From contig JAMPIJ010000008.1 of the NCBI GenBank assembly GCA_023662905.1, positions 1 through 61,170 on the forward strand: DNA of 61,170 bases, given 5' to 3'. The notes under the pieces were generated by a model. It saw only the letters and a list, made by a program, of their open reading frames with translations, was not told where the DNA came from and did not search any database. Made by a program: the position numbers and the translations under genes. Every line of letters starts with the position of its first letter. Within the stretch, counting starts at the first letter, position 1. Positions 1-61,156 of this stretch are shown piece after piece. The stretch is from Fusobacterium sp. (GTDB lineage: Bacteria; Cyanobacteriota; Vampirovibrionia; Gastranaerophilales; Gastranaerophilaceae).

Positions 1-52
1 GCTCAGCAGGCCCCCCCCCCCCTGCATAACTTAATACTTTTTTCTTGTTCAT
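1..52 (-). CDS. prepilin-like protein, 5' end only (partial)
   Basis: Only the first 17 codons lie inside the window; the gene continues past base 1. The start at 52 is set by an AAAGG ribosome site about 11 nt upstream. The readable N-terminus is MNKKKVLSYAGGGGPAE, where the four glycines are a pure run of 12 G on the coding strand (11-22). The other two prepilin genes here (42484-43449 and 60163-61156) have the same layout: a basic start, a G run, then the FTMAE pilin motif. The upstream AAAGGATGGAAAA also matches the one before the 61156 start. Prepilin identity is inferred from that likeness, because the pilin helix lies outside. Whether G12 is in frame cannot be judged. Confidence 0.55.
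   Translation of the reverse strand, partial: MNKKKVLSYAGGGGPAE
11..22 (-). repeat. homopolymer tract G12 (coding strand)
   Basis: Twelve uninterrupted C on the + strand, G on the coding strand, inside the start of a prepilin-like gene. The 3' flank on the coding strand is CCTGCTGAGC. The tract is a candidate slipped-strand contingency locus; its phase cannot be judged because the gene leaves the window. Confidence 0.9.
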
Positions 53-4305: not shown

Positions 4306-6975
4306 TTACTTTATCATAAATTTTAGTTTTTTATAAGGGATATCCAACTTCCAGTTATTTTTATCAAAAATATTATCTTTTACGAAATGAAGTTTATCGT
4401 CTTCCTCGAACGGATTAACTTTACCCTCATAAGAAGTTGGCTGCCATGTATGCCCTGTTTTAATATATATACCATTTTTCTTGTCGGTTAAAATTTTCTT
4501 GCCGGTAAACGGATTGCGCGCGTCCTTAATTAAACCTTGAACGGCAACATACGGAACATCTGCATTTGTCATAAATTCATTAGAAGACTTAAATTCACCG
4601 TTAGAATTAAAATCTTTCACCATAAACAGAGGGTTGTAAGGCATGATATATTTGTTTGCGAACGCGGAGAATGTAGGATTCATAACTTCGCGTCCATGGT
4701 CAGAAACAATGATAATTCTTGTGTTATCGTACACATCGTTTTCTTTTAAGAATTGCATATACTTACCGAGCATAATCAAAGACGCTGCATTAACGTGATA
4801 ATGCTTCAACGCATGATCGTTACCATTAAACCCGTTTACGTCCTCCGGAATCGGAAGCGAATCATCAAGCGAATAATCAGGGCCATAAAGCAAATCAGGT
4901 TCGTGCGGCAAATCATTATTAATCACAATTAACGAATTTTTACCTTTTGAAAAACCTGTCAACTGCGGCAAGTAATAAAGTTCCGCGTAATTTTCAAGTA
5001 AATACGAAGAATGATACTCAATTAAATTAGAATTAAGATATCTACCTTTATTATAGATATAATTTCTCATATCCGGTTGTGACACCGCCAGCAAACTATA
5101 GAAAAGAAAATTTCTCGCTGTTAATTTGGTATTTTTTGCGTCCAAATCACTTTTTGTAACGTATTCAGAGCCTAAATCTCCTCTTACAGTTTTATAATTA
5201 ACTCCTCGCTCAGTATAAAGCTTATCCGTTTCAAGCCAATCATAATTCCAGTCGCTGCCAGGGGTATCAGAAACCGTTACCTGCCAACCGTCTTTTGCAA
5301 AAAGTGCAGGAAGCATTCCCAATGCTTCACGATATTTATCCATAACGGTATCTGTCGTATTTTCCGCCATTTTAAACGGTGTATATTCATATCCGCCAAG
5401 TATAGCCTGATATCCGAGGAATGTGTATCCATACATTGAAACCGTGTTTGGATAATAAACGAATCCTGCGAATTCATCTTTAAGCTCAGGCTTTTCATTA
5501 AACACTAATGGCAAATATGAACCCAAAGCCCTATCCAAAAAGATAATCAATACATTTTTATTATCAGTACTTAAATTAAAAGCATTGGCTCTGTCAAAAG
5601 ATTTTTGCGTTGCAACTGACGCCTTATAACTATGGAACTCTTTAAAAATTTTCACATAATTCGCACTTGTTGAAATAACTAAGGCACATACAACAACCAC
5701 AATTAAATTTTTCAAAAATTTTCTTGCGAGTAAAAACAATGCGGTAAACACTATAATCGCCACTGCAATACACAGCGGATAAACGAATCCCTCAGGGCTG
5801 GCAAAATAAACGGATTCCGCGTCGAACTTGAGCGAACTTAATAGATTATGTTCCGGCATCGGGATTAAAAATGCATTTAGAATCCAGTAAAACAAAAGTA
5901 ATCCGCTGACAAATGCCATAAATTTACGCGTTTTCCCAGAAGAAAGAACAAAGAAGCATCCGCCCCAGAATAAAAATAGCCCTAACGCCTGTAACGCAGG
6001 CGCACTCATTATTCCAAACGGAGTAACGCCTGCATTCAAAAATGTGAATTCAACAGGTGAAGTTGCAACAACATTCGACGGGATTAAAACGCCAACCAAC
6101 AACCATAAAGCCGTACATGTTATAAAATAGAGGCTTTTAGGGTCAAAATCTTTTAGGAACTTTTGTACAAAGCCCATCTTCGGCGCCAAAACCATTAAAC
6201 CAAGTATGTAAATAATTATATCCAGATTCAAATAATATCTTTTAGCAATTATATAATAAATAAAAAGCGCAGAAGCCATCACACATTTAACAAACGCCTT
6301 TTCCCCCATTCCTCTCAGCCCGAGGTTTTTGATAAGCGAAAAGAAATTGTTAAAAGTCCAGTACAACACAAGCCCGGATGGTGAATTATACAAAAGCACC
6401 AAAAACACCAAACTCATAATATACAACTGCGAATTTTTCTTAAACGACTTATCTTCCGTGTAAACATAAGCCGCAGCAATATTCACTAAAGTCATTAAAA
6501 TAGGCAGAAAATTTATGGACAAAGCCCCGATTTTAATAAGCCTATCAGGCTCTGCAAGGCTCGGAACCCCTATCAAGGCAGTTTCATTAAATATTTGCAG
6601 GTGCGAAAAGAACAAATACGCACCAAAGAAAAACGGAATCTGTAACAGCAAACTAAAACTTAGCCGCAAAGCCATTACCGGATGATAATTATTCTGTCTG
6701 TAATAAGTCTGCAAAAGCAAATGTTTTTCATCACCGGAAAAATTCTTCTTGATACTATTAACCCTTGCGGCCATTTTCGCCTGAATACTCTCTTCCTCAT
6801 GCTGAAGCCGCGCCGCGTTCAAATACAATGGCAGACAAAATAAAAAGACAATATAGCTTATCAACAATATCGTTAACGCAATATTAGAATTTAACGTCGT
6901 ATACAACGCATAAAAAGAACTTTCAAGCGCTGCATAAATAGGATAAATTATTATCTGAAACAAAGCATCTAACAT
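4306..6975 (-). CDS. YidC/Oxa1-like domain fused to LtaS-type sulfatase domain
   Basis: 889-residue membrane protein with an unusual architecture. Residues 1 to about 215 read as a YidC/Oxa1 insertase domain: an N-terminal membrane segment, a charged cytoplasmic hairpin (QHEEESIQAKMAARVN), then the hydrophobic core ending in SGLVLYWTFNNFFSL. Several membrane helices follow (about 225-455). The C-terminal 400 residues resemble the extracellular alkaline-phosphatase/sulfatase fold of LtaS-type phosphoglycerol transferases: a metal-binding Asp in LIIFLDRALG (about 478), a nucleophile candidate Thr in MYGYTFLGY (about 515), and VSDHG near 755. The start overlaps the end of the TagB-like gene by 7 bp, so they form an operon. 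I infer transfer of a phosphate-linked group to a surface polymer. I know of no characterised protein with this fusion. Confidence 0.75.
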   Translation of the reverse strand: MLDALFQIIIYPIYAALESSFYALYTTLNSNIALTILLISYIVFLFCLPLYLNAARLQHEEESIQAKMAARVNSIKKNFSGDEKHLLLQTYYRQNNYHPVMALRLSFSLLLQIPFFFGAYLFFSHLQIFNETALIGVPSLAEPDRLIKIGALSINFLPILMTLVNIAAAYVYTEDKSFKKNSQLYIMSLVFLVLLYNSPSGLVLYWTFNNFFSLIKNLGLRGMGEKAFVKCVMASALFIYYIIAKRYYLNLDIIIYILGLMVLAPKMGFVQKFLKDFDPKSLYFITCTALWLLVGVLIPSNVVATSPVEFTFLNAGVTPFGIMSAPALQALGLFLFWGGCFFVLSSGKTRKFMAFVSGLLLFYWILNAFLIPMPEHNLLSSLKFDAESVYFASPEGFVYPLCIAVAIIVFTALFLLARKFLKNLIVVVVCALVISTSANYVKIFKEFHSYKASVATQKSFDRANAFNLSTDNKNVLIIFLDRALGSYLPLVFNEKPELKDEFAGFVYYPNTVSMYGYTFLGYQAILGGYEYTPFKMAENTTDTVMDKYREALGMLPALFAKDGWQVTVSDTPGSDWNYDWLETDKLYTERGVNYKTVRGDLGSEYVTKSDLDAKNTKLTARNFLFYSLLAVSQPDMRNYIYNKGRYLNSNLIEYHSSYLLENYAELYYLPQLTGFSKGKNSLIVINNDLPHEPDLLYGPDYSLDDSLPIPEDVNGFNGNDHALKHYHVNAASLIMLGKYMQFLKENDVYDNTRIIIVSDHGREVMNPTFSAFANKYIMPYNPLFMVKDFNSNGEFKSSNEFMTNADVPYVAVQGLIKDARNPFTGKKILTDKKNGIYIKTGHTWQPTSYEGKVNPFEEDDKLHFVKDNIFDKNNWKLDIPYKKLKFMIK
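4308..4316 (-). promoter_or_regulatory. possible extended -10 box for leaderless aroA
   Basis: TGA-TAAAGT on the minus strand followed by AATTTT and the aroA ATG. It is the weakest of the four boxes with this spacing (the fifth base departs from consensus) but the geometry is identical. Confidence 0.3.
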
Positions 6976-8253
6976 TTGCTAACTTCTTTCTGTTTTTCAA
7001 CCAAAAAATCCACAACTCTAACAGCACTTTCGCCCCTGTACTGCCATGCAACATCTTTCGCCGCCTCAATAACCTCCAACGGCACAGAAGTCTTAATTTC
7101 ACTAATAATTTTAACCACATCAGAAAGATTTTCTCTATTTAATTCTTTCCCAATCTCTTTCACAACACGGTAACGCCAAGGGGTTTCGTCTAAATCTGAC
7201 ATATCATATAAATCAATATTCATCTCAGTATCAACAAAAACAAATGGTCTGTTAAACAGAAAAGCGTAATCAAACATTACACACGAAAAATCACTCACCA
7301 TAACATCAGCCCTGCTCATAACCTCAAGGTTATTAGAGTCAAAATTCCAACTGATATTCGCACAATCCTTGAAATCATTCATTAACTTTTCAACGACTTC
7401 TTTTTCTGCGGTCATTGATTGCGGGTGAGGTCTGACGATAATATTAAATGACGATTTTGATAAATATTCTAAAAGTTCCGCGCCGAATTTACGCAACAAT
7501 CCATCCGGCCCCCAACTCGGAGCGACTAGAACGTTAATTGAATTGTTATCCTTTGAAGAGAGGCCCCCCCCCCCCGGCGAGTTTAGACGCAAAGAAGTCC
7601 ATATAAGTACTTCCAACTACCGGCAATTCTTTTGCGGGAAGATTTCTTTTATTCTCAATTTCTCTAATCAAAGGGATTTGGAACTCACCATCGCATAAAA
7701 CAGAATCAAAATAATCAACCCCGAACAAATGATAATCCATAGAAAATCCAACTGAATGGAAAATATGGCTATAATGTTTCACAAATTTTGAACGTTTTAA
7801 TTGCAACACATCTAATTGCGGAGTTGTCATCAAACAAACATCTGCACGCAAAAACGCCAGTTTGAAATAAGCACTATTCCCTGTTCCGATATATTCTCCC
7901 GTTACATACTCATAATTTTCACCGAAAAACGGATCATCTTCGCTTGACGTCAAATAAACAAGCGGAATCTTACGCCGCTCAAACTCATCAATCACCGGCT
8001 TAAAAACTGGAAAATACCTCGTTCCCTCCGAATAAATTACAAACGGTTTATTATCCTTACTCAACCCGCGTGACGCAAAAAGTGAACCTTTAAGCCTTAT
8101 AAACAGCGAATACAACACAAAATAAGCAGTCGCGCACATTCCAAGGACAACCGAAAACAACATACTTCCAGTACCCGGATCAATATACGCCCACGCTGGA
8201 GTAAAAAATCCAACAGCTAAAAATATCAACAAAAATTTGGCCAAAATTCTCAT
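6969..8253 (-). CDS. TagB-like glycerophosphotransferase, frameshifted at a G12 tract (OFF)
   Basis: Two overlapping frames together make one CDP-glycerol glycerophosphotransferase-like protein of about 428 residues. The N-part (from Met at 8253, AGGAG 8 nt ahead) has a hydrophobic start, AYIDPGTGSML and a second membrane segment. The C-part carries VAPSWGPDG, IVRPHPQS and VSDFSCVMFDYAFLFNRP, the family's acceptor and nucleotide region. They are separated by 12 G (7564-7575). As assembled the frame runs through four GGG codons to a stop shortly after (PLFKG then TAA). A tract of 11 or 14 G would join the parts as GGGGLSSKDNN. The 3' end overlaps the YidC-sulfatase gene, so truncation should also reduce its translation. 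This is either phase variation or a homopolymer error. Confidence 0.75.
7564..7575 (-). repeat. homopolymer tract G12 inside the TagB-like gene
   Basis: Twelve G on the coding strand, preceded by ACTCGCC and followed by CCTCTCTT. The same eight bases follow the G13 tract of the prepilin gene at 43408. In this assembly the length puts the downstream half out of frame. Confidence 0.9.
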
Positions 8254-8335
8254 TTCCAGCTCTCCTACCAAGGAGTATCGCATAAAAATTTATGAATAGC
8301 AAAAAATATTTTTCAGGCGTTTATAATAAACAGTA

Positions 8336-10051
8336 ATGGACATGTTCAAAGATTATAACGCATACCTTCAATATCGGCCCCAATATGCCAACTGGAAAAC
8401 AGAACGGCAGAAACAGGAGGCCAAAAGGCTTGCTTATCTAGAAAAACACCCCGAATTAAGAAAAGATGAGGATATTCAACGCGGAAAAACCTTGCTTAAA
8501 GCAATTGATATTCTCGACGAATATTCCCAATCCAGCGCCGAAAACACAGAACTAGCAACCGAAATTGTTTCCCAACAGGTTCTCGGTATTATTTCACTTG
8601 CCGGAAATGCCGTCGGTTATGGTGCAATGTACCTTAAACCTTTCCGCAAATATTTCGACAAAATGGCTAAAACAAGTAAAACGCTTGAAATGGTTGCGTC
8701 CTTAGTTCCAATGACCGTCGGCGGAACAATCGCATCGCTTGCTGCATTCCCGATAATGGCATGGGCCGCAAAAACAGAAGTCGGCGCCTCACGCAAAGGA
8801 CGCCTAGAAGCGATGAAAACAAAACTTCAAAACCCTGCGAACTTCGCCGTCCTCACCGACGAACAACTTAAAACAGCAAAAGAACTGGCTGCCAAAATAG
8901 AATTAACAGAAGAAGAAAAGAAAACTTCAACACCGCAATTCTCATTCAAAGAATCCGTAAACATTATAAAAAACTTCAACAAACAAGAAGAAATCGAACG
9001 ACGTGACCACGAAGAATTCAAAAAATTAATCCAAGCCGAAGATTCCCCACTCAATCGTGAACTCAGCCCCGAAGAATTAGAAAAAGCAAAACGCGACCAA
9101 CAAATTTTAACAAAATTGGTTGAAAAAATAGACCTTGCGTCACAAGACTACGCAGAAAACGTAGAATTTGCGACAAATTCTCTCACCATTCTATCCCCGC
9201 TTTTTGGTGCCGGAGTTGGTTGGGCGGCGTCAAAAATCAACAAACTTTTGAAAGTTAACCCCGACAAAATCGCCACTAAAATCGCTCCTTGGGCCGTCGG
9301 CTTAATCGGAACAATTGCACTTGTTTCTTACTCAACCTCAATACAAAAACAAGCTTCCCGCGTTGGCCGCTTCAACGTAAGACAAGAACTTGCACGCAAC
9401 CCTGAACAACTTATCTATGTTGACGATGAAAAAGTTAACGCAGAAATCAGTGATGATATAGAAGTTAAAGAAGCAAAACGTCCAAATTTCTTTAAATTCC
9501 TCTGGCAGGTATTCAAAGACAATCAAGCCTACAAAAAATATCAAAAAACAGAGGGACTTGCAGACAAAAAACTGAACAAAGCGCTTGAAAAAATAGACTT
9601 AAACGACGAACAACTGGCAGAAGCGAAAGTGTTGCAACGTAATACATTCAAAACATTCAACAAACTCGATGAAATGTCACAAAAATATTCGGAAAATGTT
9701 GAGGCTGTTGGCAATGCACTCAAACAACCCATAGGTTTGGTCTGCGGAACAATTGGCGCACTGGTTGGTTTTAAATATTTAAACAGAATTCCAGACGGCT
9801 TAGGTTCAAAATCAGAGGGAATTAAAAACATTGACGCAATACTAAAAGGCGCGATTAAATACGTAGCAAGCGTATTAATAAGCTATCTACCACTGATAGC
9901 GTTTGATTTTTACATAACAAAGGAACAGAAATCAGCGTCACGTGTCGCAGATATGCAAGCAATAAATGAGCTTGATGATATAAAGAATTTTACGGGTTAT
10001 AAAGCTAATAAACCGGCCGAGCGGATTGACTCGAGGAAATTTTTCGGCTAG
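8336..10051 (+). CDS. unknown membrane protein with three repeats of a two-helix module
   Basis: 571 residues, not recognised as a known family. It contains three divergent copies of one unit: a D-(E/L)-x-S-Q-x-(S/Y)-x-E-N motif (61-70, 266-275, 445-454), two hydrophobic segments about 20-30 residues apart, then an ASR(K/V) motif (151, 340, 534). Charged, coiled-coil-like linkers rich in Glu, Lys and Ala separate the units. There is no signal peptide. TATAAT ends 8 nt before the ATG and no ribosome site is visible, so the message may be nearly leaderless. It stands alone, divergent from the polymer genes and followed by tRNA-Ser. Function is unknown; a membrane scaffold is a guess. Confidence 0.8.
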   Translation: MDMFKDYNAYLQYRPQYANWKTERQKQEAKRLAYLEKHPELRKDEDIQRGKTLLKAIDILDEYSQSSAENTELATEIVSQQVLGIISLAGNAVGYGAMYLKPFRKYFDKMAKTSKTLEMVASLVPMTVGGTIASLAAFPIMAWAAKTEVGASRKGRLEAMKTKLQNPANFAVLTDEQLKTAKELAAKIELTEEEKKTSTPQFSFKESVNIIKNFNKQEEIERRDHEEFKKLIQAEDSPLNRELSPEELEKAKRDQQILTKLVEKIDLASQDYAENVEFATNSLTILSPLFGAGVGWAASKINKLLKVNPDKIATKIAPWAVGLIGTIALVSYSTSIQKQASRVGRFNVRQELARNPEQLIYVDDEKVNAEISDDIEVKEAKRPNFFKFLWQVFKDNQAYKKYQKTEGLADKKLNKALEKIDLNDEQLAEAKVLQRNTFKTFNKLDEMSQKYSENVEAVGNALKQPIGLVCGTIGALVGFKYLNRIPDGLGSKSEGIKNIDAILKGAIKYVASVLISYLPLIAFDFYITKEQKSASRVADMQAINELDDIKNFTGYKANKPAERIDSRKFFG

Positions 10052-10066
10052 AATATAGAGGACTAA

Positions 10067-10153
10067 AGAGAGGTGTCCGAGCGGTTTAAGGTGCAATCTT
10101 GGAAAGGTTGTGTGGGAGCGATTCCACCGTGGGTTCGAATCCCATCCTCTCTG
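10067..10153 (+). tRNA. tRNA-Ser (GGA)
   Basis: 87-nt tRNA. The acceptor stem AGAGAGG pairs with CCTCTCT and the discriminator is G. The anticodon stem CAATC/GGTTG encloses loop TTGGAAA, giving anticodon GGA. A long variable arm (GTGGGA/TTCCAC) and a T-loop TTCGAAT are typical of tRNA-Ser. CCA is not encoded. A terminator follows directly. Confidence 0.96.
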
Positions 10154-10360
10154 GATAAAATACCGACAGGCTTTTGTCCTGTCGGTATTTTATTATGTGT
10201 GATATGGAATGCGAACCCACCACAAGGCTTAAGCCTTGTCTTTTGAGGTTCGAGCGCGAGTGAGCTGAGGCTGGAGCATTTTGCTAGATGACGGAGTCAT
10301 TGAGGCAAAATGCGGAATTGCCGTTACACGCGAACGAGCAAGACAATCCCATCCTCTCTG
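10138..10360 (+). repeat. 16-bp direct repeat of the tRNA-Ser 3' end around a structured insert
   Basis: The last 16 bases of tRNA-Ser (AATCCCATCCTCTCTG, 10138-10153) recur exactly at 10345-10360, with a second terminator-like hairpin right after the copy. Between them are about 190 bp with no gene, holding a perfect 18-bp palindrome (ACAAGGCTT/AAGCCTTGT, 10222-10239) and a hairpin with outer arms GCATTTTGC (10276-10284) and GCAAAATGC (10305-10313) and inner arms ATGAC/GTCAT. This looks like the footprint of a small element inserted at the tRNA 3' end, as integrases do, or a local duplication. Confidence 0.7.
10161..10195 (+). terminator. terminator after tRNA-Ser
   Basis: TACCGACAGG and CCTGTCGGTA pair around CTTTTGT and are followed by TTTTATTAT. 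Confidence 0.85.
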
Positions 10361-10364
10361 TATA

Positions 10365-10397
10365 ACCCTCAGGTAGGCTTTTGCCTTTCCTGAGGTT
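10365..10397 (-). terminator. terminator shared by the acyl-CoA synthetase gene and the tRNA-Ser repeat
   Basis: ACCCTCAGG and CCTGAGGTTTT pair around a TAGGCTTTTGCCTTT loop. It lies just after the stop of the minus-strand acyl-CoA synthetase gene and is T-rich on the + side, so it may act in both directions. Confidence 0.6.
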
Positions 10398-12071
10398 TTA
10401 TATATTTACTAACTTTTGAACTTCTTTTCTTTTAATTTTGCGGGTTGTAGTTCGTTCAAAGGCTTCTTTACGCAGGATTATGTTATTCGGACGTTTGTAT
10501 GCAGTCAATCGCTGACACAAAGTTTTTATATCCGCTCGAACAATCTTTTCGACATCCTCATCTGAATATTCATTATATAAATCTTTGTTCGGAACCACAA
10601 CGGCCGCGACTTCCTCTGTTCCATCTTTCGCACCGAATGTTCGCTGCGAACCAAGAACACAAACTTCTGAGATATACTTACTTTTTTCTAAAACTGATTC
10701 AACTTCTTCAGGAAAAACTTTTTTACCGCCGGAAAGAACTATCATATTTTTTATACGACCAGTGATATAAATATGACCATCTTTATCAAATTTTGCAATA
10801 TCTCCTGTATGCAGCCAGCCCTCAGAATCAATAGTTTCGGCGGTCAATTCGGGTTGATTACGATAGCCCTTCATAACTGACGGACCTCTAAGTTGCAACT
10901 CTCCTGTTTCCTTATCAATCCTCGCCTCAAACTGTTTTAGAGGACGACCGACAGAACTCAAAGTTCCACGTTTATCAGTATTCACAGAAACTACAGGACT
11001 AGTTTCAGAAAGCCCGTAGCCTTGATAAACTTTTATCCCTATCGTTTCAAAAAACTTTCCAACGCTAACATCCAGCGGCGCTCCACCAGAAATACAGCCG
11101 ATAAACCTACCGCCAAACTGATCATGAATCTTTTTGAACATAAGTTTTTTAACAGAATAAAAAGGAACAAATCGAGCTAGAGAATAAAGTACACTAAACG
11201 CATACTGACTAAACTTTGACGAATTTTTCAATTCGTTTTCGATTGCGCACTTCAAAAGTTTTAAAAATGCCGGTACAACTATCATAAATTCAATTTGTTT
11301 TTCTCTCATAACGCTCAAAATATCTTTTGGCTTAAGGCTGTGAGAGTAATAAACAGAGAAGCCAAAATTCAAAAACGCAGAGAAACCGACAGTCATTTCA
11401 AAAAGGTGATTCATCGGTAAAATTGAAAGCGTTTTTATTTTTCTATTCGGCAAAATTGCAGACAATGCAATCTGCAAATCCTCAAGTTGGCTCGTTATAT
11501 TTTTGAAACTGATTTCAACGCCTTTCGGAGAGCCGGTTGTGCCGGAAGTATAGATAATAAATGCCGTAGCCTTAGAACTTCTCTTACGCCATTTTGCGTT
11601 ATAAATATCAGGAAGTTCATAAATGCTGACAGTATTTTTTTCGTGAAAGTGTTCATCAATAACAATAATATGTTTTAGAGATGGAATTTGTGCCTGAATA
11701 TTTTTTGCGATTTCAAGATATTTAGCTGAAACAAGTAATACTACAGGTTCTGCGTCCGTCAATATGGATTTCAACTCATATTCTGTAAGTTTTATGTCCA
11801 ACGGAACGGTTATTGTTCCGGCCAGAATCGAAGCGAAAACACAAGCTCCGTATTCGGGTTTAGATTCTGATAGTATTGCAACCCGTTCGCCTTTTGATAC
11901 AGCCACCTCTTCTATAAGATATCTTCCAAGTTTGCGTGATAAAAGCCCCAGTCCTTTATAGGTAAACTCTTTCCATCCAAAAGCTTCTTTAATACCTAGA
12001 GCTACTCTGTCTTCATAATCACAAGTTTTGTCCTCTAAAAGCGACAAAATATAACGACTTCTTAATCCCAA
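10398..12071 (-). CDS. long-chain acyl-CoA synthetase-like AMP-binding enzyme
   Basis: 557-residue ANL-superfamily ligase that activates a carboxylate as an acyl-adenylate and then a thioester. Core motif YTSGTTGSPKG (near 170-180), then GYGLSETSP, GWLHTGDIAKFDKDG, and GRIKNMIVLSGGKKVFPEE near the C-terminus. These are the A3, A5, A7-A8 and hinge signatures. The best match is fatty acyl-CoA or acyl-ACP synthetases; the substrate cannot be read from sequence. The start is a TTG at 12071 with GGAGG 6-7 nt ahead. It is a single gene, not part of the fab cluster. Confidence 0.85.
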   Translation of the reverse strand: MGLRSRYILSLLEDKTCDYEDRVALGIKEAFGWKEFTYKGLGLLSRKLGRYLIEEVAVSKGERVAILSESKPEYGACVFASILAGTITVPLDIKLTEYELKSILTDAEPVVLLVSAKYLEIAKNIQAQIPSLKHIIVIDEHFHEKNTVSIYELPDIYNAKWRKRSSKATAFIIYTSGTTGSPKGVEISFKNITSQLEDLQIALSAILPNRKIKTLSILPMNHLFEMTVGFSAFLNFGFSVYYSHSLKPKDILSVMREKQIEFMIVVPAFLKLLKCAIENELKNSSKFSQYAFSVLYSLARFVPFYSVKKLMFKKIHDQFGGRFIGCISGGAPLDVSVGKFFETIGIKVYQGYGLSETSPVVSVNTDKRGTLSSVGRPLKQFEARIDKETGELQLRGPSVMKGYRNQPELTAETIDSEGWLHTGDIAKFDKDGHIYITGRIKNMIVLSGGKKVFPEEVESVLEKSKYISEVCVLGSQRTFGAKDGTEEVAAVVVPNKDLYNEYSDEDVEKIVRADIKTLCQRLTAYKRPNNIILRKEAFERTTTRKIKRKEVQKLVNI

Positions 12072-42483: not shown

Positions 42484-43449
42484 CTAACGTTTAACACATC
42501 GGACGCTCATGGCCTCAGTTCTCAATCTATCACTATTTGCATAACCTGATTCTAACCAGAAATACCACGCCTTAGTCGATGATATAACACTGGTTGTCCA
42601 ATACAACGCGTCGGTTACAGTTTGTGTTCCATCTTCAATCAAAAAAGTATTAACGAACAACGACGCCATCTCTTCCTTATTTGGCAAACGATATTCAGGA
42701 TCTGATTTTGTGCAGGCAGCGCCGGCCTCCGCCTGCTTATACTGCTCAGGAAGACTTCTGATTTGAGGGAACGGCCCTACTATCACCGAATCCGTAGGAT
42801 AAAATATTGAAATATATCCCATATCTTTACCAACAGTATTTGGCCCCTTTGAACCATTTAAGTCATAAACCAGATTCACACAAAGTTTTGTTTGATAATA
42901 AGTTTTACCTGTTTCGTTCATATCAGGAACGCATTTCCCATTATAAAAAACAATAATACTCTCACCATTAACCGTTTCAAAAGCAGCGGCATCAGAATCT
43001 TCTTGAGAATAAGAGTACCCCTCCCCGCCCTGACCAATAGCGGACATGTTGACAATTCTCGGGTTCAATTCTGACATTTTGGTCGGTGTCGAAATAGTAC
43101 CGCCATTTAATTTAACCATTTTGGACGCAATACTGCAATCTGAAATTTTGTCAGTAGAGCAAATATTATTTATCTTTAAAACCTTTGCAAGTCCTGCAGT
43201 CACAAATGTTTCCGCGTTAGCGTATCCGTTAACGCTTCCCATCAACGGAACCGCTTGAGAAATTCTCGCGAATAAAGCTTTTCGTTGTGTATTCCATGTA
43301 CGCTCATTAATGTTACCTGTCAGCGACGGCAATGTTATCGCAGCAACCACGCCAATAATTGTTAGAGATAAGAGTATCTCTGCCATAGTAAAAGCACCTA
43401 AGAGAGGCCCCCCCCCCCCCTCTAACATGTTTACAAGTTTTTTTTTCAT
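42484..43449 (-). CDS. prepilin-like protein with G13 tract, in frame
   Basis: 321 residues from the ATG at 43449 (AAGGATT 6-8 nt ahead). The leader KKKLVNMLEGGGGPLLGA is followed by FTMAEILLSLTIIGVVAA, the type IV prepilin helix with Glu at +5; the residue before cleavage would be Ala instead of Gly. The rest is a globular pseudopilin domain with several Cys and a C-terminus ending RCVKR, like the gene at 60163. The four glycines come from 13 G (43408-43420), the last 12 of them as GGG codons, in frame here. A second ATG at 43507 lies in another frame and would join the pilin at G12 (see findings). Confidence 0.88.
   Translation of the reverse strand: MKKKLVNMLEGGGGPLLGAFTMAEILLSLTIIGVVAAITLPSLTGNINERTWNTQRKALFARISQAVPLMGSVNGYANAETFVTAGLAKVLKINNICSTDKISDCSIASKMVKLNGGTISTPTKMSELNPRIVNMSAIGQGGEGYSYSQEDSDAAAFETVNGESIIVFYNGKCVPDMNETGKTYYQTKLCVNLVYDLNGSKGPNTVGKDMGYISIFYPTDSVIVGPFPQIRSLPEQYKQAEAGAACTKSDPEYRLPNKEEMASLFVNTFLIEDGTQTVTDALYWTTSVISSTKAWYFWLESGYANSDRLRTEAMSVRCVKR
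43408..43420 (-). repeat. homopolymer tract G13 in the prepilin leader
   Basis: Thirteen G on the coding strand between ATGTTAGA and CCTCTCTT. In frame with the start at 43449. The eight bases after it equal those after the tract in the TagB-like gene. Confidence 0.9.
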
Positions 43450-60162: not shown

Positions 60163-61156
60163 TTAACGTTTTACGCAACGGGTTGAGTTTGCAAGCGCAG
60201 ATCCTGTAGTTTTAGCGGTTTTAACTTTATTACCCATAACGTAATAAATATACGTATCAGAGCTATCTGCACCTTTGGAAGAAGTTGCTAAATTAGGCGC
60301 ACCGGTTGTTATTTTAGTTGCATTAACAAATAAATTATTCAACGCCATAGATATTGCTTCAAATTTGTTCGGAACACGATATTCTGTGTCAGTACATGCT
60401 GTCGTTTGATTACCAATATTAGGAACAGTTGAAACTACAACTGAGTCAGTTGGATAGAATACTGTCATAAAGCCGATATCTTTACCAACTGTGTTTGGCC
60501 CTTTGTTGTTGTTCAAGTCATAAACCATGTTTACGCAAACATATTTGAACCATTCTTCATCAAGGTCTTTAGGTGCCATTTCTTGATCTGGAACGCAATC
60601 AGGATTGTAGAACAGTACGATTGATTCGCCGTTACCGGTTTCAAACGCTGCTGTGAACTTGCCAAATCCAGTTTTATTTGCTGCTGCTTGTGCAGAAGTT
60701 TTCTGTTCTTCAGTCATACCAGTATCGTCAAAGGATGCCGAACCAATACCTAAATCCGGCCAAAGGCTAGGGAATGAATTCAATGCACCACCGTTAAGCG
60801 TACCAACCATATCTTTATTGATACCACAGTCCTCAATATTCTCCTGTGAACATACGTTGTTGATTTTTGTTACTGTATTCAAAGCCCCGGCAATGAAAGA
60901 TTCTGCATCATCATACGTGTTGATTGAATCTAACAACGGGAATGCTTGTGACATACGAGCATATAACGCCTTTTTCTGAGTCGCCCACGTTCTTTCGTTA
61001 ATGTTACCTGTCAATGATGGTAACGTAATTGCGGCTACAACACCGATAATTGTTAATGACAGCAATATTTCCGCCATGGTGAACGCCGGTGCTGCAATAA
61101 TGCGGTTAAGGAAACTCCCCCCCCCCTGTGCAAGGGAATACAGTTCTGTTTTTCAT
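60163..61156 (-). CDS. prepilin-like protein, frameshifted at a G10 tract (OFF)
   Basis: The start at 61156 has AGGATGG 8-11 nt ahead and reads MKNRTVFPCT, then G10, then FP and a stop (TAA) in the assembled frame. With 9 or 12 G it would run on as GGGSFLNRIIAAPA into FTMAEILLSLTIIGVVAA and a 300-residue pseudopilin domain like that of the 42484 gene (NINERTW, GPNTVGKD, ending RCVKR). No other start exists in the pilin frame between the tract and the internal Met at 61077, which lies within the cleavage motif and would lack the leader. So the gene is OFF as assembled, by phase variation or sequencing error. Confidence 0.8.
61117..61126 (-). repeat. homopolymer tract G10 in the prepilin leader
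   Basis: Ten G on the coding strand between TTGCACA and AGTTTCC. Only multiples of three keep the pilin in frame, so the assembled length is one too many. Confidence 0.9.

Follow-up and report, generated by a model that had tools for sequence, protein, structure and literature searches.

Why would a bacterium make a YidC/Oxa1-type membrane insertase domain and an LtaS-type sulfatase domain as a single polypeptide? Such a fusion was proposed in an initial annotation of the window, which is the whole 61,170-nucleotide stretch of DNA analyzed here. It was found that the 889-residue ORF is intact, with an ATG start codon and no internal stop codons, and that it recurs in other genomes (Table 1). 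A protein with 81% identity and the same architecture is encoded in a Candidatus Melainabacteria genome (G006, locus L046), and the architecture of a YidC domain followed by a sulfatase domain was found at 30–41% identity in several phyla. Thus, the fusion is no assembly chimera, an explanation which was ruled out by the many genomes sharing the architecture. I found no published description of YidC-sulfatase or YidC-LtaS fusions in a search that reached a minority of the subscription journals. The parts themselves are known. Their combination, as well as the neutral-groove YidC clade and the TagB swap described below, appears to be undescribed in the literature, which is considered here apart from architecture annotation in databases.

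Table 1. Coordinates and strands of the features discussed (window positions unless a locus is named)
Feature	Coordinates	Strand	Basis
YidC-like/LtaS-like fusion gene	4306..6975	minus	ORF, Pfam, AlphaFold2 model, homologues
YidC/Oxa1 domain, residues 1-225	6301..6975	minus	PF02096, 3wo7 fold match, groove column
Membrane spacer, residues 226-462, several predicted transmembrane helices	5590..6300	minus	hydropathy, model helices
LtaS/sulfatase-fold catalytic domain, residues 463-889	4309..5589	minus	invariant residues, profile, fold
TagB-like (PF04464) partner gene, two ORFs (7546-8283 and 6969-7616)	6969..8283	minus	frameshift, profile, homologues
12-G run	7564..7575	minus	breaks the TagB-like frame
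Poly-G runs in the window	11-22, 7564-7575, 43408-43420, 61117-61126		
YidC-TagB fusion, L128	3467-5425	minus	
YidC-TagB fusion, L129	3265-5403	minus	
YidC-TagB fusions, L144-L151			

Domains and distribution of the fusion protein

The whole protein was modeled by AlphaFold2 with a 22-sequence alignment (pLDDT 82.9). The N-terminal part of the window protein matches the Pfam YidC profile (PF02096) at residues 33–218 well above the cut-off (E = 4.9e-19; 69.3 bits against 35), and all of the 22 family members match it. The N-terminal model superposes on Bacillus halodurans YidC (3wo7_A) with a Z value of 16.9 and an rmsd of 3.0 over 207 residues, and the YidC fold in the model includes the cytoplasmic helical hairpin (helices 32–78 and 81–94). 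The window protein misses the cut-off of the NCBIfam YidC model TIGR03592 (66.7 bits against 84.3). The domain is a member of the YidC/Oxa1 superfamily, sharing the five-helix fold, the cytoplasmic hairpin, and the family profile with the YidC/Oxa1/Alb3 insertases (PF02096, TIGR03592). For the membrane spacer, no fold relative was prominent in a structure search with the N-terminal half, which was dominated by YidC matches.

The C-terminal part of the window protein matches the Pfam Sulfatase profile (PF00884) at residues 474–766 under the cut-off (E = 0.0014; 18.5 bits against 25), and 21 of the 22 family members match it at E ≤ 0.01, the best with 3.9e-11. Profile searches therefore find YidC in the N-terminal part and a sulfatase-type domain in the C-terminal part, as first proposed. 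The C-terminal model resembles many members of the alkaline-phosphatase superfamily, with Z values of about 20–22 over 280–340 residues. However, the scores of LtaS, LtaP, PbgA, choline sulfatase, and phosphonate monoester hydrolase are tied, and the choice among LtaS, sulfatase, and phosphonate monoesterase on the basis of the fold was dropped because of this tie. The NCBIfam LtaS model did not match the window protein and matched two of the 22 members weakly. Thus, the LtaS-type half of the initial annotation holds as a superfamily fold, LtaS being one of several members of the superfamily which it may be.

Which chemistry would this domain perform? D481, T518, H691, D759, and H760 are invariant in the family alignment. 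By analogy, T518 would be the nucleophile and the Asp and His residues would be metal ligands, a set which would also fit other superfamily members. The nucleophile column has a Thr in every row, and the formylglycine-type motif (Cys/Ser-x-Pro/Ala-x-Arg) was not found there. A Thr nucleophile is typical of LtaS/EptA-type phosphotransferases. Thus, this residue is in keeping with a phosphotransferase of the LtaS/EptA type and argues against a formylglycine sulfatase. In LtaS, LtaP, and the LtaS/EptA/PbgA group, too, a membrane part precedes an outer domain of the alkaline-phosphatase fold, which is equipped with a Thr nucleophile and metal ligands. The fusion differs from LtaS and LtaP in its extra YidC-like domain, as well as in the scarcity of LtaS model matches and in the fold tie with sulfatases and phosphonate monoester hydrolase. 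Alternatively, the outer domain might be a hydrolase, cutting back or modifying the phosphodiester, phosphonate, or sulfate ester groups of glycans. The tied fold scores are compatible with this, as are the PDB sequence-profile matches, which are chiefly sulfatases and phosphonate monoester hydrolases. However, the Thr in all rows, the lack of a formylglycine-type motif at that column, and the biosynthetic company of TagB-like and nucleotidyltransferase neighbors (see below) make a hydrolase decidedly improbable.

Is the fusion common? Full-length fusions were found in four of the 58 other genomes of the relatives set and in six of the 292 genomes of the phylum sample, the own genome of the window (G000) included. 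Outside the phylum, they occur in Treponema, Breznakiella, Brachyspira, Lachnospiraceae, Ruminococcaceae, and Riflebacteria. Thus, the search for other fusions that the initial annotation had proposed found full-length homologues in Melainabacteria, spirochaetes, Clostridia, and Riflebacteria. Several copies per genome were found in many cases, some of them in tandem. L052 (5374-13498), L062 (5326-10688; from the cultured Breznakiella homolactica RmG30), L047, and L131 hold two to four YidC-sulfatase genes that are clustered or in tandem, and one genome (G064) has about nine or more copies. Plasmid or phage carriage was considered for the patchy distribution and rejected, since no full-length match was found in PLSDB or INPHARED; the single plasmid match covers the YidC part only. 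The own genome has LpxC (E = 1.5e-60), in agreement with the LPS-type gene content noted at the outset. Taken with the kinship to the G006 genome, this makes a diderm melainabacterium of the gut the most likely host. LpxC was not found in the four non-melainabacterial fusion genomes tested, which argues that the fusion system is not tied to LPS.

Loss of the groove charge in the YidC-like domain

A positive charge in the hydrophilic groove is described as strictly conserved across YidC homologues (PMC8920935). In the window protein, the position of the groove Arg is occupied by Phe44 (6844-6846). None of the 25 fused YidC domains has an Arg or Lys there, compared with 17 of the 19 canonical YidCs from fusion genomes; the residue is Asn, Ser, Thr, Gln, or Phe. 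This neutral-groove clade of the YidC superfamily breaks the charged-groove rule stated in PMC8920935. In a tree of these 25 fused domains and 19 canonical sequences, the fused domains form one clade (100/100) on a long stem of 1.9 changes per column. Near-invariant residues specific to the clade are S40, Y51, N155, T162, Y172, S198, N209, and K216, among which the polar residues S40, N155, T162, and N209 lie in predicted membrane helices. Thus, the fused domain differs from the YidC/Oxa1/Alb3 insertases in its groove, in its own invariant residues, and in its stem branch, besides being joined to a catalytic domain and coexisting with a canonical YidC. The mean column identity is 62% for the YidC half and 44% for the catalytic half. 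A domain that is decaying or merely tethers would not be expected to show the higher conservation of the two.

Does the fusion replace the canonical YidC? A separate and stronger YidC is present in the own genome and in all of the 19 other fusion genomes searched, and this possibility was ruled out. The canonical yidC gene of the own genome, whose presence the initial annotation had asked about, is located on contig C33 and retains the groove Arg. It is still conceivable that the fused domain works as an insertase or chaperone for its own multi-spanning protein or for a dedicated partner, the fusion only ensuring co-expression. The YidC fold and the cytoplasmic hairpin are retained, and the groove Lys is retained in the second fusion type described below. 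Moreover, E. coli YidC tolerates the loss of the groove charge as long as another residue close by in the groove is suitable (PMC8920935), and two stand-alone Lachnospiraceae YidCs (L087 and L089) have Tyr and Asn instead of a positive groove residue. Thus, the loss of the groove Arg does not prove the loss of insertase function. On the other hand, a canonical YidC accompanies the fusion in all genomes searched, and a particular set of invariant residues marks the fused clade. It is also hard to see why surface-polymer enzymes alone should need a private insertase, as homologous stand-alone sulfatase-type proteins (L147, L148, L150, and L151) lack the domain. An insertase role is therefore rather unlikely.

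Lipid scrambling in vitro has been shown for E. coli YidC and for other members of the Oxa1 family (PMC10491306), and thus the needed activity for moving a lipid-linked intermediate already exists within the family. The initial annotation had proposed that the YidC part was co-opted to translocate a lipid or polymer. This has become the best-supported reading; the loss of the groove charge, the conservation, the TagB swap, and the scrambling activity (PMC10491306) all point to it, although it stays an inference.

TagB-like partners, the swapped module, and phosphonate genes

The end of the TagB-like gene overlaps the start of the fusion gene by seven bases in the window. Its C-terminal piece matches PF04464 with 41.8 bits against a cut-off of 22.1, and the intact G006 copy with 40.3 bits; an intact homologue lies at L041 (11475-12872). 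Thus, the TagB-like neighbor reported in the initial annotation is real as a family member but not as an intact gene, since it is out of frame in the window. At 15 of the 20 sampled homologue loci, in addition to the window, a TagB-like gene touches the fusion gene, either overlapping it or lying within 35 bases. No adjacent TagB-like gene was found at the other five, which include both Brachyspira loci. The neighbors share PF04464 with the TagB/TagF/TarF CDP-glycerol glycerophosphotransferases, as does the YidC-TagB partner described next. However, they have a distinct N-terminal membrane segment (YIDPGTGS) and score far under the NCBIfam TarF and TarL cut-offs.

Is the YidC-like module always joined to the sulfatase-type enzyme? 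It was revealed that two further YidC-bearing proteins of a Lachnospiraceae genome (G061) consist of a YidC domain and a PF04464 domain. Such YidC-TagB fusions were found in 10 of the 250 genomes sampled from Lachnospiraceae. In four of these 10 loci (L147, L148, L150, and L151), the gene adjoins a stand-alone sulfatase-type membrane protein gene with no YidC match. The stand-alone protein aligns with the catalytic half of the fusion (hhalign probability 99.6, E = 3.8e-24), and its Thr aligns with T518. Thus, the window's arrangement of a TagB-like protein and a YidC-sulfatase fusion has a counterpart in a YidC-TagB fusion and a separate sulfatase-type protein, the YidC module being joined to either enzyme. 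The YidC domains of the two fusion types form separate clades (100/100 each), and the YidC-TagB fusion arose independently of the YidC-sulfatase fusion. The groove Lys is kept in the YidC-TagB domains, so the neutralization of the groove is not required for the pathway link. By the Rosetta-stone argument, the module swap indicates that the TagB-like enzyme, the YidC-like module, and the LtaS-like enzyme act in one process.

The swap could also be explained if the YidC-like domain serves for docking only, as a platform that keeps the TagB-like enzyme and the catalytic domain together at the membrane but transports nothing. The adjacency of the TagB-like gene at most loci would fit this, as would the predicted cytoplasmic hairpin, which could bind a partner. 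However, the strongest clade-specific conservation extends beyond the hairpin to the polar residues in membrane helices, and at the Brachyspira loci the TagB-like neighbor is missing. Mere docking is thus unlikely.

Which group may be transferred? Eight of the 10 YidC-TagB loci have nucleotidyltransferase genes or phosphonate genes as neighbors. At L149 and L151, a full aminoethylphosphonate gene set lies beside the fusion, and the genes of L149 (PepM, Ppd, and AEP aminotransferase) all exceed the NCBIfam equivalog cut-offs. The L128 and L129 loci have other PepM, Ppd, or aminotransferase genes, and L144-L146 and L150 have genes for MobA-like nucleotidyltransferases. Phosphonate genes also adjoin YidC-sulfatase fusions at L044, L058, and L059. 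In the phosphonate clusters of L044 (7938-9038, minus strand) and L128 (5361-6491, minus strand), an iron-type alcohol dehydrogenase gene replaces the aminotransferase gene, which suggests hydroxyethylphosphonate rather than aminoethylphosphonate. As a separate observation, L151 encodes a 732-residue protein with no Pfam match (8768-10966, minus strand) upstream of the YidC-TagB gene and the aminoethylphosphonate cluster.

A strong PepM is present in 17 of the 24 fusion genomes and in four of the 54 non-fusion relatives, counts which are uncorrected for relatedness. Within the relatives set alone, the numbers are three of five and four of 54 (Fisher p = 0.0096, likewise uncorrected). PepM is lacking in many fusion genomes, however, and a strong PepM was found neither in the own genome of the window nor in G030; phosphonate is therefore not universal. 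The own genome has a TagD-like cytidylyltransferase under the family cut-off (E = 1.1e-31), and none of the genomes tested reached the TagD cut-off for dedicated CDP-glycerol synthesis. A TagD-like gene (E < 1e-15) or a PepM-cytidylyltransferase was found in 13 of the 14 fusion genomes tested, a count which covers fusion genomes alone and is only suggestive. The simplest account of this gene content is that the substrates would be various phospho- or phosphono-alcohols in nucleotide-activated form.

Several fusions thus lie near genes of the Pnt pathway, namely PepM-cytidylyltransferase, Ppd, AEP aminotransferase, and LicD genes, by which surfaces are decorated with 2-aminoethylphosphonate through nucleotidyl activation (PMC6697681). 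In contrast to that pathway, PepM is missing from many fusion genomes including that of the window, and neither YidC nor a sulfatase is mentioned in the text of PMC6697681, where the later steps of the phosphonate decoration of glycans are called enigmatic. No link between YidC and phosphonates was found in the literature searched, which again comprised a minority of the subscription journals.

Taken with the domain make-up, the TagB linkage, the conservation, the loss of groove charge, the invariant catalytic residues, and the module swap, all of which are observed directly, the fusion may be a bipartite membrane enzyme of surface-glycan decoration or polymerization, whose YidC-like module brings a membrane-bound intermediate to the outer face. 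I consider this plausible, with about an even chance of being right; transport, its direction, the substrate, and the product are what I infer here. First, the cytoplasmic TagB-like enzyme would load a nucleotide-activated group onto a membrane lipid or a lipid-linked glycan. The group is possibly a CDP-glycerol-like phospho-alcohol in the genome of the window, and probably CMP-aminoethyl- or CMP-hydroxyethylphosphonate in many other genomes. Second, the head group would cross the membrane, or be handed over there, by means of the YidC-like module, in which the groove is neutral and not charged. Third, by means of its Thr nucleophile and a bound metal, the LtaS-like domain would pass the phospho- or phosphono-alcohol on to a glycan acceptor on the outer side.

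MprF, a synthase-flippase, and the AT3-SGNH acyltransferases also have a membrane translocation part and a transfer enzyme in a single protein. They are only working analogues of the fusion; the folds are unrelated, and the likeness is drawn from function and not from sequence comparison.

A wider reading, tentative and somewhat doubtful, is that YidC modules have been recruited at least twice as translocators of lipid-linked phospho- or phosphono-glycan intermediates, once with an outer LtaS-like transferase and a neutralized groove and once with a cytoplasmic TagB-like transferase. If true, this would be a new biological role for the YidC/Oxa1 superfamily, and a three-part surface-polymer machine would be common to diderm and monoderm gut bacteria. 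For several surface polymers, an explanation is still wanted of how their polar lipid-linked building blocks get through the inner membrane, and the fusion system is a candidate for the export and transfer step of phosphonate-decorated surface glycans. A conserved gene pair with the YidC module on either glycan phosphotransferase would offer a direct test of the biological use of YidC-type scramblase activity.

Poly-G runs in the partner gene and in the genome

Why is the TagB-like gene of the window out of frame? The frame is broken by the 12-G run, which lies in the linker between the two halves of the protein. In G006, the same site has 14 G residues and the gene reads through. Thus, the length of a tract inside the ORF sets the reading frame and differs between the window and G006, as in a poly-G contingency tract. 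No G run was found at this site in the homologues of other genera. Judging from these sequences, the poly-G frameshift seems to have turned off the TagB-like step in the window strain.

Poly-G runs are also abundant elsewhere in the genome. Runs of at least 10 G residues number about 108 in the 1.74-Mb own genome and 87–127 in five of the six other members of the genus; none was found in the sixth (G005), and such runs are rare outside the family. Sixteen of the 30 runs sampled in the own genome are flanked by a short start on one side and a prepilin-type motif (FTMAEILLS) on the other, some in frame and some out of frame. This looks like a candidate for a large phase-variable pseudopilin repertoire, on which no paper was found. 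Twelve other contigs of the own genome (C4, C15, C20, C22, C26, C27, C31, C32, C37, C43, C44, and C45), as well as the window itself, start within about 60 bases of a poly-G run. Thus, the assembly is probably interrupted by the pilin repeats or by the poly-G runs as such.
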